Below, one piece after another: positions 34,414-42,954 of a stretch of 64,000 nt of DNA. Under the pieces are notes generated by a model. That model did not search any database and was not told where the DNA came from. It saw only the letters and a program-made list of their open reading frames with translations. Within the stretch, counting starts at the first letter, position 1, and each line of letters begins with the position of its first letter. A program made the translations under genes and the position numbers. The stretch is from positions 186,001 to 250,000 of the forward strand of contig JAIXWF010000015.1 in NCBI GenBank assembly GCA_027482185.1. Direction: 5' to 3'. This DNA comes from Opitutaceae bacterium (GTDB lineage Bacteria > Verrucomicrobiota > Verrucomicrobiia > Opitutales > Opitutaceae).

Positions 34414-37656
<3,243 letters not shown>

Positions 37657-37811
37657 GAGCGTAGATTTCGGCGAGAGTTGAGAGCGGGGAAACGCGCGGC
37701 AAGCGGGAAAGCGGTCCGCCCGCCGCGCCCGGCAATTTCCACGGGCCCGCACCGCGAATTTCCCGCGGACGAAGGCTCGCCGCCCGGGCCCAGAACCCCC
37801 AGCGTCCGCCC

Positions 37812-38663
37812 GTGCCCCGACGCCTCGCCCCAGGCCTGTTCGCGCTCTGTGTCTTAATTGCGTCCGCCGCCGCCCTGCCGGCCCAGGATTCGCACCGCGG
37901 CGCCCCGGCCGCCGCGCCCGCCGCCGTCGTCCTGCCCCAAACGCCCGCCGACCTCGCCGCCGGCGCGCAATTCTTCCAGGTCCACTGCGCGCTCTGCCAC
38001 GGCGCCAAGGGCGAGGGCGGCAAGGGCCCGACCCTCGCCGTCCCGGTGTTGCCCCGCGCGGCGGACGACGTCGCCCTCGTCCGCCTCATCACGCAAGGCA
38101 TCGGCGGCACGGAAATGCCCGCGTCCAAACTCGGCGCCGCCGAGATCGCGCAGCTCGCGGCCTTCGTCCGTGCCCTCGGCCGCCTGCCGGTCGAACCCGT
38201 GCCCGGCGATCCCGCCCGCGGCGCGCAGCTCTTCGCCACCAAGGGCGGTTGCACCGCCTGCCACACCGTGGCCGGCCGCGGCGGCGCCTTCGGCCCGGAC
38301 CTCACGTTCATCGGCCAGCGCCGCAGCGCGGGCTACCTGCGCCGCGCCCTGCTCGCACCCGCCGCCGACGTGCCGCAAAGCGCCACGCCCTACCGCTCTG
38401 ACGTCAGCCTGCCGGAAAACTTCCTCTTTGTCCGCGCCGTGCTGCGCGACGGCCGCACCCTCGCCGGCGTGCGCCTGAACGAAGACGCGTTTTCCCTCCA
38501 GCTGCGCGAAGCCTCCGGCCGCATCCACTCCGTCTTCAAGGCCGACCTCGCCGCCCTGCACAAGGACCGCGGCTTTTCCCCCATGCCCGCCTACGGCGAT
38601 CTGCTCGCGCCGGCGGAAATCGACGACCTCGTCGCCTACCTTGTCTCCCTCCGCCGGCCATGA
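37812..38663 (+). CDS. Di-heme c-type cytochrome
   Basis: Two CxxCH sites: [16 protein letters not shown] and [13 protein letters not shown]; signal peptide. Confidence 0.9.
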
Positions 38664-40279
38664 ACCGCCCGTCGTATCCGTTTTTCCGTTTCGTTGCCGC
38701 CGCGCTCGCCCTGCTCGCCGGTACCGCCGCGCTGCGCGCCCAGGTTGACGTACCGTATGCCCGGCTGGTCAATGCCGCCGCCGAACCGGGCAACTGGCTC
38801 ACCTACTCCGGCGCCTACAACGGCCACCGCCACTCGGCGCTGCGGGAATTGACGCCCGGCAACGTCGGCGAACTCAAAGCCAAGTGGGTCTACCAGGCCC
38901 GCGAAGCGGCGGGCAAACTCGAGTGTTCGCCGCTCGTCATCGACGGCATCCTCTACGTCACCGAACGCCCCAACATCGTCACCGCCATCGACGGCCGCAC
39001 CGGCCGCGCCCTCTGGACCTACCGGCGGCCGCTGCCGGCCGACGTCCAGGGCTGCTGCGGGCCCGTCAACCGCGGCCTCGCCGTCCTCGGCGACACACTC
39101 TACCTCGCCACCTACGACTGCCACCTCGTCGCGCTCGACGCGAACACGGGCCGCGAGCGCTGGGACATCGTCGTCGCCGACTACAAGACGGGCCACTCGA
39201 TGACCGGCGCGCCGTTGGCGGTGAAGGACAAGATCGTCGTCGGCATCGCCGGCGGCGAATACGGCATCCGCGGTTTCCTCGACGCCTACGATGCCGCGAC
39301 CGGCAAACGCGCGTGGCGTTTCTGGACCGTACCCGGCCCCGGCGAACCGGGCCACGCCACGTGGACCGGCGACAGCTGGAAGACCGGCGGCGCACCGACG
39401 TGGGTGACGGGCACCTTCGATCCCGCGTTGAACTTGCTCTACTGGGGCACGGGCAATCCCGGGCCCGATCTCGACGGCAGCGGCCGCGCCGGCGACAACC
39501 TTTATTCCTGCAGTTTGCTCGCGCTCGATCCCGACACCGGGACGTTGCGCTGGCATTTCCAGCACACGCCGCACGACCTGCACGACCGCGCGTCGAACCA
39601 GATCCCGGTGCTCGTCGACGCGGAGTTCCGCGGCCGGCCGCGCCGGCTCGTCGTGCAGGCGAACCGCAACGCGTTCTACTACGTGCTCGACCGCGAGACC
39701 GGCGAATTCCTGCTCGCCACGCCCTTCGCGCCGCAGACCTGGGCGCGTGGCCTCGATGCGAAGGGCCGGCCGATCGCCGATCCTGCGGCCGCCCCGAGCG
39801 CCGCGGGCACGGCGGTGCTGCCGGGCATGGGCGGGGCGACGAATTGGTTCAGCCCGACCTTCGATCCGGCCACGGGTTTGTTCTACGTGCAGGCAACGGT
39901 GAACAACGCGGACATCTTCTACCGCCTGCCGCAGCCCTACGTGCCGGGCGCGCCGTACCTTGGCGGCGATTTCCGCAACCCGCCCGGCAACGAACCGCAG
40001 AGCACCGTGAAGGCGCTCGATTTCCGCACTGGCGAACTGCGCTGGGAATTCCCGCTCAACACCGCGTCGATGGCGGGACTGATGTCGACGGCCGGCGGCT
40101 TGGTTTTCGGCGGCAGCCGCGAAGGTTGGTTTTTCGCCCTCGATTCCCGGAGCGGAGAACCAAAGTGGCGGTTCCAGACCGGCGGCTCGATCATGGCCAA
40201 CCCGGTGACCTTCGAAGTCGACGGCCGCCAGCACGTCGTGATCTGCGCGGCATCGGCGATTTTCGCGTTCGCACGCTAA
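38660..40279 (+). CDS. PQQ-dependent (quinoprotein alcohol) dehydrogenase
   Basis: NWLTYSGAYNGHRHSALRELTPGNVGELKAKWVYQ...GCCGPVNRGLAV...WTGDSWKTGGAPTW; 4-nt overlap with the cytochrome c gene. Confidence 0.93.
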   Translation: MNRPSYPFFRFVAAALALLAGTAALRAQVDVPYARLVNAAAEPGNWLTYSGAYNGHRHSALRELTPGNVGELKAKWVYQAREAAGKLECSPLVIDGILYVTERPNIVTAIDGRTGRALWTYRRPLPADVQGCCGPVNRGLAVLGDTLYLATYDCHLVALDANTGRERWDIVVADYKTGHSMTGAPLAVKDKIVVGIAGGEYGIRGFLDAYDAATGKRAWRFWTVPGPGEPGHATWTGDSWKTGGAPTWVTGTFDPALNLLYWGTGNPGPDLDGSGRAGDNLYSCSLLALDPDTGTLRWHFQHTPHDLHDRASNQIPVLVDAEFRGRPRRLVVQANRNAFYYVLDRETGEFLLATPFAPQTWARGLDAKGRPIADPAAAPSAAGTAVLPGMGGATNWFSPTFDPATGLFYVQATVNNADIFYRLPQPYVPGAPYLGGDFRNPPGNEPQSTVKALDFRTGELRWEFPLNTASMAGLMSTAGGLVFGGSREGWFFALDSRSGEPKWRFQTGGSIMANPVTFEVDGRQHVVICAASAIFAFAR

Positions 40280-40445: not shown

Positions 40446-41702
40446 TCAGCCGATTTTCGAAACGTCGATGCCGAGCACCTTGGCGGCGGCGGCTTTGTCG
40501 TCGCGGCAGGCGTGGAGCACGAGGTCGATGTACTGCTTTTCCTGGCCGGCCATGTACTCGGCCAGCGACGGCCAATGTTTCAATTCGCGCAGGCGCAGCG
40601 GCAATTGCTGCGACGTCACCACGCGCGACTCCGTCGTGCCCGCGATCTTGGTCACGACCTGCACGAGTTCGATCAAGTTGCCCGGCCAATGGTAGGCCTG
40701 GAGCACGGCCATGGCGTCGTCGGTGAACTCGATCAGGTTCGCGTCGAAGAGCGGATTCGCGGCCTGGCTGGAGTAGTTTTTCACCAGCAGCGGGATGTCC
40801 TCGCGGCGTTCGCGCAGGGGCGGCATCTGCACCGGCAACGAGGCGACGCGGTAGAACAGTTCGTCGTGGAACTTGCCCTCGTCGACCAGGCGCTCGAGGT
40901 CCTCGCTCGTCGTGCAGACGAGGCGGAAGCCGTGCGCGGTGTTGCGCAGCACGCTGACGAGTTCCTTCTGCATCGGCTCGCCGAGGCACTGCAGGTGCTG
41001 GAGGAACAGCGTGCCGTTCTTGGCCTGCTTGACCCAGGCCCCGCCCTCGCCGTTTTCGCCGAGCAGGCCGGCGCGGAAATTGGCCTCGGAGCTGAGCGAG
41101 CAGTCGATGCGCACGAGGGCCGAGTCCGGCGTGCCGCTGGCGCCGTGGAGAATCTCGGCCACGGCGCTCTTGCCGGTGCCGTTCTCGCCGATCAGCAGCA
41201 CGGGCGTGCGGACGGTGGCGAGTTTCTTCACCTGGGCGATGAGCTTGGTGATCTTCGGGCTCTTGCCGATGAGGCGCGTGTCGATGTCGGCCGACTTGGC
41301 CGCGGGCACCATGCCGGCGCCGACGCGTTCGGCCTGGAACTTCCGGAATTCCAACCCGCGCCGCAGCGTCGCGATCAGTTCGTCGACGCGGAACGGTTTC
41401 TGGAGATAATCGAAGGCGCCGTACTTCAGGGCCTGCACCGCGCTCTCGGTGGAGGCGTAGGCGGTCATGATGACGACGACGCAGTTGGGGTCGTACAGCT
41501 TCAGCTGTTTCAGCAGCGTGATGCCGTCCATCGGCTTCATGTCGATGTCGGCCAGGACGAGGTCGAACTTCTCGGCCTTGTAGCGGACCAGGGCCTTCTC
41601 GCCGTCCGTCGCGAACGACGTCGCGAAACCCGTCGGCTGGATCACAGCCTCCAGCATCTCGTGGATGGAGACGAGGTCGTCGACGATGAGGACGGAAGGC
41701 AT
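40446..41702 (-). CDS. NtrC-family response regulator with a degenerate AAA+ domain
   Basis: Receiver SVLIVDDLVSIHEML...LADIDMKPMDG...MTAYAS...LQKPF; AAA+ VLLIGENGTGKS...PPLRERREDIPLL; no GAFTGA. Confidence 0.9.
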   Translation of the reverse strand: MPSVLIVDDLVSIHEMLEAVIQPTGFATSFATDGEKALVRYKAEKFDLVLADIDMKPMDGITLLKQLKLYDPNCVVVIMTAYASTESAVQALKYGAFDYLQKPFRVDELIATLRRGLEFRKFQAERVGAGMVPAAKSADIDTRLIGKSPKITKLIAQVKKLATVRTPVLLIGENGTGKSAVAEILHGASGTPDSALVRIDCSLSSEANFRAGLLGENGEGGAWVKQAKNGTLFLQHLQCLGEPMQKELVSVLRNTAHGFRLVCTTSEDLERLVDEGKFHDELFYRVASLPVQMPPLRERREDIPLLVKNYSSQAANPLFDANLIEFTDDAMAVLQAYHWPGNLIELVQVVTKIAGTTESRVVTSQQLPLRLRELKHWPSLAEYMAGQEKQYIDLVLHACRDDKAAAAKVLGIDVSKIG

Positions 41703-41775
41703 GGGGCGGAAAAACGGAGCCGGCGACGTTCCGGAACGGAGGGCGCGATGTCAAACCGCCCGCGCCGCGGCCGGC

Positions 41776-42954
41776 TTACTGCATGCCGCCCGCAACCGCA
41801 CCCAGCTGGAAGATCGGGAGGAACATCGCCATGACGATGCCGCCGACGACGACGCCGAGGAAGACGATGAGCATCGGCTCGATCAGGGAGGTGAGCGCGG
41901 CGACGGTCGCCTCGCACTCCACGTCGTAGAAATCGGCGATCTTGTTCATCATGCCGTCGACGTTGCCGGTGGACTCGCCGGCCTTGACCATGTGCTTCAT
42001 CATCGGCGGGAAGAACGGATTGGAAGCGAGGATCTCGGAGACCTGGCCGCCTTGGCTGACGTGCTTGGCGATTTCCTCGCAGGCATCCTCGATCTGCACC
42101 TTGCCGGAGGCGGCCGACACGATCTCGAGGGTGCGCAGAATCGGCACGCCGGAGCGGATGAGCGTCGCGTAAGTGCGGCAGAAACGGGAAAGGGCGATCT
42201 TGTGGATCAAATTGCCGAAGATCGGCGCGCGAACGAGGAAGTGGTCCTTGGTGCGGCGGCCGTTGGGCGTGGCGGTGAATTTGCCGAGGCCCCACCAGGC
42301 GGCGTAGCAGCCGAGGGCGATCGCCCACCAGTAGGCCTTCAGGAAATCGGAAAGATCGATCAGGAACTGCGTGGGCGCGGGCAGCTTGGCACCGAAGTCG
42401 GCGAACATCGCGGCGAACACCGGGATGACGAAGATCAGCAGCACGTTGACGAGCGCGACGGCCAGGCCGATGACCGCGATCGGGTAGGTCATGGCCGACT
42501 TCACCTTCTTGGTCAGCTTGACGGTCGATTCGAAGTAGCCGGCGACCTTGCCCAAAATTTCCGCGAGACCGCCGGACGCTTCACCGGCCTCGACCATGGA
42601 CACGAAGAGGGTGTTGAACGCGTTCGGGAACTTGCGGACCGAGGAGGAAAACGAGTTGCCTTGGGAGATGTCGGCGCGGACGTCGCGGATCACGATCCGG
42701 AAACAGGGATCTTCCGTCTGGTCCTGCAGGGCCTCAAGGCATTGCACGAGGGGCAGACCGGCGGTGAGGAGCGAGGCGAGCTGCTGGGTGAACATCGCCA
42801 GTTCGCCCATCGGCAGCTTGTAGGTCTTGGCCTTCTTCTCGAGGGCCTTCTGCTTCGCGAGGGCCTGGGCTGCCATGACTCCGCCGGACTTTTTCTGGGG
42901 CGCCGAACGGTTGGATTGGGCCGCGCCGGAAGCGCTCGGAGTAAGCAGTGCCAT
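41776..42954 (-). CDS. Type II secretion/type IV pilus inner-membrane protein (GspF/PilC family)
   Basis: LPMGELAMFTQQLASLLTAGLPLVQCLEALQDQ...VEAGEASGGLAEILGKVAGYFE...IEPMLIVFLGVVVGGIVMAMFLPIFQL. Confidence 0.94.
   Translation of the reverse strand: MALLTPSASGAAQSNRSAPQKKSGGVMAAQALAKQKALEKKAKTYKLPMGELAMFTQQLASLLTAGLPLVQCLEALQDQTEDPCFRIVIRDVRADISQGNSFSSSVRKFPNAFNTLFVSMVEAGEASGGLAEILGKVAGYFESTVKLTKKVKSAMTYPIAVIGLAVALVNVLLIFVIPVFAAMFADFGAKLPAPTQFLIDLSDFLKAYWWAIALGCYAAWWGLGKFTATPNGRRTKDHFLVRAPIFGNLIHKIALSRFCRTYATLIRSGVPILRTLEIVSAASGKVQIEDACEEIAKHVSQGGQVSEILASNPFFPPMMKHMVKAGESTGNVDGMMNKIADFYDVECEATVAALTSLIEPMLIVFLGVVVGGIVMAMFLPIFQLGAVAGGMQ

Follow-up and report, generated by a model that had tools for sequence, protein, structure and literature searches.

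A Conserved pilC-Linked Response Regulator of Opitutaceae Predicted Not to Act as a Sigma-54 Activator

Introduction

The gene described here lies in a 64,000-nucleotide stretch of DNA from an Opitutaceae bacterium (hereafter, the window). Comparison with its orthologues establishes it as a conserved, selected, single-copy bEBP descendant that is tied to pilC, retains an intact receiver, and is predicted to be defective in both catalysis and DNA recognition. On balance, we favour a reading in which this NtrC-derived response regulator has moved out of transcription and uses its receiver to act on a type IV pilus-like machine whose genes are dispersed; the step to the pilus is one that we infer. 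Judged from sequence, the protein is almost certainly not a sigma-54 activator, is very probably a pseudo-ATPase, and, slightly less surely, lacks Fis-type DNA binding. It is likely to work with the PilC machine, and control of the pilus machine is probably direct; physical contact with PilC or PilT themselves is a more doubtful, tentative proposal. In the literature collection searched, there was no paper joining Opitutaceae, the type IV pilus, and a response regulator.

Structure of the Regulator Gene and Its Product

The regulator is a degenerate NtrC-type protein of 418 amino acids, identified by translation, Pfam, and an 80-protein alignment, and is encoded on the minus strand (positions 40446–41702, read from 41702 to 40446). 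The motifs that the earlier note had placed in this interval recur letter for letter in the translation, with the strand corrected to minus; the plus-strand frame over 40446–41702 is an unrelated overlap. The domain order is receiver, linker, pseudo-AAA+ domain, and truncated Fis domain. The receiver, delimited by the alignment, consists of residues 1–118 (41349–41702, minus strand). The pseudo-AAA+ domain with its lid spans residues 143–374 (40581–41276, minus strand), as supported by Pfam, alignments, an AlphaFold2 model, and a Foldseek match to NtrX, NtrC1, and PspF. The C-terminal stub (residues 375–418 and the stop; 40446–40580, minus strand) is a Fis domain cut after AAxVLG, with the recognition helix missing. 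In a Pfam search of the 418-residue protein, Response_reg (97 bits), Sigma54_activat (82 bits), AAA_lid_14 (59 bits), and also Sigma54_activ_2 matched well above cut-off, and no helix-turn-helix match was obtained. The AlphaFold2 model, built with 71 orthologues, has a mean pLDDT of 86, and the closest solved folds found by Foldseek are those of Brucella NtrX, NtrC1, LuxO, VpsR, and FleQ, which makes it a fold of bEBP type in spite of the losses described below.

Loss of the Sigma-54, ATPase, and DNA-Recognition Motifs

The alignment comprised the window protein and 79 others (the best 80 of 348 relatives from a scan of genome contigs). The eight intact bEBPs of the window's own genome all hold G[AS]FT[GD]A, [FL]LDE, FR..L..RL, and WPGN[VI]REL in matching alignment columns, which rules out the idea that the motifs of the regulator are shifted but present. 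The receiver is intact, as the earlier note had held: D8, D9, D52, T80, and K102, which supply the acidic pair, the phospho-Asp, the Thr/Ser, and the Lys of a two-component receiver, are invariant among the residues present. The earlier note's other motif readings also agree with the alignment. Walker A is kept (GENGTGKS in the window protein), its Lys position being K in 73/80 and R in 7/80 and the next position S or T in 55/80. A shortened Gly-rich segment stands in place of GAFTGA, which is absent from all 80 aligned proteins; this L1 segment has the conserved form GLLGxNGxGGxW, with an invariant W. Walker B reads FLQH in the window protein as against [FL]LDE in the eight bEBPs, and across the alignment its first position is Q in 68 of the 80 proteins (E in 8, D in 1) and its second is H in 57 (E in 2). 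Within FHDELFYRV, the first Arg finger is H279 (H in 55/80, N in 22/80), whereas the second, R285, is kept in 80/80. The protein stops before the recognition helix, a point past which the intact bEBPs run, and nearly all orthologues end within a few residues of each other. The sensor-II Arg, a loss not listed in the earlier note, is also gone: the window protein has WPGNLIEL where the eight bEBPs have GN[VI]REL, and the aligned proteins have T, S, A, or I at this position.

Shared as they are by 80 aligned proteins, these changes cannot be put down to sequencing errors or to recent decay. A few members (L180, L182, L187) keep the Walker B Asp but not the Glu, which points to stepwise loss. In a divergent subgroup (about 40% identity), Walker A is degraded to GTQK, the layout being otherwise the same. 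Since rpoN is present in the window's genome, the losses are not explained by a genome without sigma-54.

The elements for sigma-54 contact, catalysis, and DNA recognition are thus lost family-wide, with the phospho-acceptor receiver under the tightest constraint, which bears out the earlier note's view that the protein should not be a sigma-54 activator and is probably a phospho-regulated pseudo-ATPase. By sequence it is a response regulator and is not to be filed as a sigma-54 activator, because several defining features were tested and found missing. Since the recognition helix and the sensor-II Arg are also lost, a DNA-binding regulator of any kind seems unlikely.

The same genome encodes a second degenerate bEBP (G000:C16:409289-409735, L089; plus strand, open frame of about 500 amino acids). 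Its N-terminal half is different, with no receiver apparent, and is RtcR-like by eye; its Walker A reads GEPGTQK, GAFTGA is lacking, Walker B is replaced (GGTLVLIKV), and the C-terminal helix-turn-helix is intact. The GTQK change is common to this protein and the divergent subgroup of the pilC-linked family.

Selection and Distribution

The receiver is the slowest-evolving part of the regulator, with a mean identity of 88%; over 1,517 pairs its median dN/dS is 0.086, compared with 0.22 in the AAA+ domain, 0.24 in the C-terminal stub, and 0.50 in the linker. Because purifying selection continues on the pseudo-AAA+ domain, it does something in most lineages. In the ordinary bEBP paralogues of the genome, the AAA+ domain is better conserved than the receiver (48% vs. 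30% identity among themselves), whereas the window protein is 31% identical to these bEBPs in the AAA+ domain and 31% in the receiver; this comparison uses paralogues and is a rough yardstick only.

A comparison of 195 genomes from the phylum placed clear orthologues only in the window's own family, where 16 of the 19 members listed (the window's genome counted) have one. The regulator occurs in 112/150 Opitutaceae genomes sampled (E ≤ 1e-90), and a receiver query matched in 187/252, with one copy each and a single exception. A plasmid search returned distant ZraR-type matches only. The family looks restricted to Opitutaceae.

The pilC Neighbourhood

The upstream neighbour of the regulator is pilC/gspF (41776–42954, minus strand; Pfam T2SSF), which encodes an inner-membrane platform protein. 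For this pair, the order and common direction given in the earlier note stand, and the gap is 73 bp rather than 74 bp. The conserved synteny that it had suggested searching for is present: pilC lies directly upstream and is co-directional in 79/79 loci whose sequence extends far enough (among the best 80 of 348 relatives), and the same holds for all the divergent homologues (about 40%) that were examined and have readable upstream sequence. In G195 and G205, pilC only seems to be missing, through a search-threshold or frameshift effect, and in G197 the sequence is masked with N. Downstream, the usual order is carB, quinone oxidoreductase, and formyltetrahydrofolate deformylase (names read from translations). 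The regulator and carB are adjacent in most relatives; in the window, a PQQ-enzyme/cytochrome c gene pair on the plus strand (37812–40279) is inserted between the regulator and carB (34414–37752, minus strand), these names likewise being read from translations. No adjacent histidine kinase gene was seen in the neighbourhoods inspected. A pilC orthologue (58–64% identity) occurs without the regulator in other families of the order, and in G249 pilC is kept and the regulator absent; PilC therefore does not need the regulator.

The gap between pilC and the regulator measures 51–177 bp (median 67). Within the last 75 nt upstream of the regulator, TTGAC occurs in 48/78 sequences, against a mean of 3.8 expected by shuffling, mostly 17 nt from an xAxxxT hexamer in which the A and T at positions 2 and 6 are conserved. 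In the window, the corresponding element (41726–41754, minus strand) consists of TTGACA (41754–41749), 17 nt, and GAACGT (41731–41726). The motif resembles a conserved promoter belonging to the regulator, and no terminator-like site was found between the two genes. Since the regulator has this promoter-like motif of its own, the pair is better described as a neighbourhood than as a single transcript, and its members may or may not be under shared control. Across the window gap (41703–41775, minus strand) and the orthologue gaps, the motif can be written TTGAC[AT]-N17-xAxxxT; the ATG is only 36–52 nt from TTGAC in most sequences, implying a very short leader.

Co-occurrence With One PilT

PilT-family ATPases were compared across 36 Opitutaceae genomes. 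PilT clade D (G000:C3:1619805) was found in 20/20 of the genomes whose regulator gene is open and in 3/16 of the others (Fisher p = 2.4e-7, a value that ignores kinship and is based on hand-picked regulator-positive genomes); for two clade members, L318 and L345, the assignment comes from BLAST and not from the tree. In the three exceptions (G085, G196, G224), PilT-D is present and both the regulator and its pilC are absent. Association with the regulator is weaker for PilT-A (19/20 vs. 9/16), which comes with a pilB/pilC cluster of its own, and for the tandem PilT/PilU pair (9/20 vs. 2/16). The regulator and PilT-D were lost together within four genera sampled in both states (g1, g11, g13, g133), and in G220 both are pseudogenes at unlinked sites (L195 and G220:C1:1880000-1883500 = L359, respectively). 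PilT-D is placed among housekeeping genes and unlinked to the regulator, so the machine is dispersed. The conserved link to pilus genes that marks a type IV pilus regulator is found here both in the 79/79 adjacency to pilC and in the co-occurrence with PilT-D. The window's genome (G000) holds a large secretion/pilus ATPase set: 14 matches to the PilB/PilT/GspE family, together with PilC/GspF genes numbering six (12 domain matches), are for the most part dispersed.

Natural Variants

In one assembled genome (G198), the gene behind pilC encodes a receiver and the C-terminal stub only; the AAA+ domain is cleanly gone and the other neighbours are in place. A second such deletion, suspected in G331, was not borne out: both halves are intact there, and a frameshift lies in the linker. 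In G164, from a sister family, the pilC orthologue is followed 18 bp behind by a stand-alone receiver of 130 amino acids (L142:2668-3057), which is only 30% identical and may be unrelated or independent in origin; no stand-alone receiver was detected in G128, a congener of G164. In G220 (single contig), the regulator is a pseudogene that carries in-frame stops and has lost most of its AAA+ domain, and interrupted regulator frames occur in a few genomes. The variants in G198, G164, G220, and G249 indicate that the receiver is the part kept by selection. The pseudo-ATPase domain, deleted in G198, appears dispensable, and for this reason the working module is probably the receiver.

Relation to Known Systems

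NtrC-type regulation near pilus genes is familiar from PilR, an intact sigma-54 activator that binds DNA and is encoded near pilB-pilT-pilC in Myxococcus and Geobacter, with the PilS kinase next to it. The window regulator is likewise NtrC-type and encoded near pilC, but has neither the intact activator features nor an adjacent PilS kinase. Stand-alone receivers of the PilG/PilH type also act on type IV pili. As in these, signalling by the regulator probably depends on its receiver alone, and the G198 and G164 versions are nearly receiver-only; unlike them, the window protein keeps a folded pseudo-AAA+ domain and lies outside any Che-like cluster.

With bEBPs of the NtrC/NtrX/AtoC type, among which Brucella NtrX and Aquifex NtrC1 are its best solved relatives, the regulator shares the receiver-AAA+-Fis order, the Sigma54_activat match, and Walker A; it differs in lacking GAFTGA, the Walker B acidic pair, the first Arg finger, the sensor-II Arg, and the recognition helix of the Fis helix-turn-helix. 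Rhodobacter capsulatus NtrC, Caulobacter NtrC, and Vibrio cholerae VpsR also lack the GAFTGA L1 loop and are still transcription regulators, reported to act at sigma-70 promoters, in some cases without a need for ATP hydrolysis (PMC10274813). The missing loop and a kept receiver-type domain are common to these proteins and the regulator; they bind DNA, however, whereas the regulator family has also lost Walker B and the recognition helix and is tied to pilC. GAFTGA-less bEBPs are already known, and the Opitutaceae family goes further.

Alternative Explanations

The receiver may serve as a phosphate sink or relay, draining or passing phosphoryl groups of another two-component pathway, with the rest of the protein vestigial and the pilC neighbourhood reflecting that pathway. 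This would fit a protein whose receiver is the constrained part, whose AAA+ domain can be lost, and beside which no kinase gene was seen in the neighbourhoods inspected; we nevertheless hold it to be unlikely, since on its own it leaves the invariant pilC adjacency, the co-occurrence with one PilT, and the continuing selection on the pseudo-AAA+ domain unexplained.

Marginally less probable again is a role at sigma-70 promoters of pilus genes, after the manner of the GAFTGA-less regulators above (PMC10274813). The absence of the L1 loop and the closeness to the NtrX and NtrC1 structures are consistent with such a role, but an intact DNA-binding domain, a mark of those regulators, is missing here, the recognition helix being absent from practically every orthologue; Walker B is lost too, and G198 is left with the receiver and stub only.

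The phosphorylated regulator could also mix into the rings of an intact bEBP and damp sigma-54 transcription. The second Arg finger of bEBPs reaches into the neighbouring subunit, and its invariance in the family (R285), along with rpoN and the eight intact bEBPs in the genome, would suit this mechanism. The AAA+ interface, however, is fast-evolving and is deleted in G198, and the gene has no tie to sigma-54 genes, as against its tie to pilC, which makes such poisoning distinctly improbable.

That the gene is a decaying pseudogene kept by chance beside pilC, for which progressive motif loss, the true pseudogene in G220, and the few interrupted frames might speak, is scarcely credible and is ruled out for the family outside G220: in about 80 species the frames are open and of near-constant length and each of the three folded domains has a median dN/dS well under 1, and homologues occur in three-quarters of the Opitutaceae genomes searched (187/252).

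Proposed Mechanism and Implications

The sequences show that a protein of NtrC-type descent has lost the sigma-54 loop, the ATPase residues, the sensor-II Arg, and the recognition helix, whether in the common ancestor or progressively, while the receiver kept its phosphorylation residues under strong purifying selection and the gene its place behind pilC. In the reading that we favour, direct action on the pilus machine via the receiver, a histidine kinase encoded elsewhere would phosphorylate D52, and the phosphorylated receiver would change its dimer or partner contacts, so that the regulator may dock either on the PilC platform or on the PilT-type motor associated with it and thereby govern whether pili extend or retract. 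The pseudo-AAA+ domain would be at most a scaffold or oligomerisation surface, as the kept R285 suggests, and is eroding.

In this conserved gene, present as a single copy, the losses of sigma-54 contact, of ATPase chemistry, and of DNA recognition go together, and both intermediates and end states are found in living species: Walker A erosion, domain deletion, and a pseudogene with a co-lost partner. Opitutaceae may, at a little under even chances, have turned an NtrC-type activator into a post-translational, phosphorylation-controlled regulator of a type IV pilus-like motor at the PilC platform, with a dedicated PilT, by discarding the ATPase and DNA-binding parts stepwise. If the pilus link holds, the family would offer a natural series in which a transcription factor turns into a protein that directly controls a molecular machine, and the regulator would be a candidate for the switch that sets pilus dynamics in Verrucomicrobiota.
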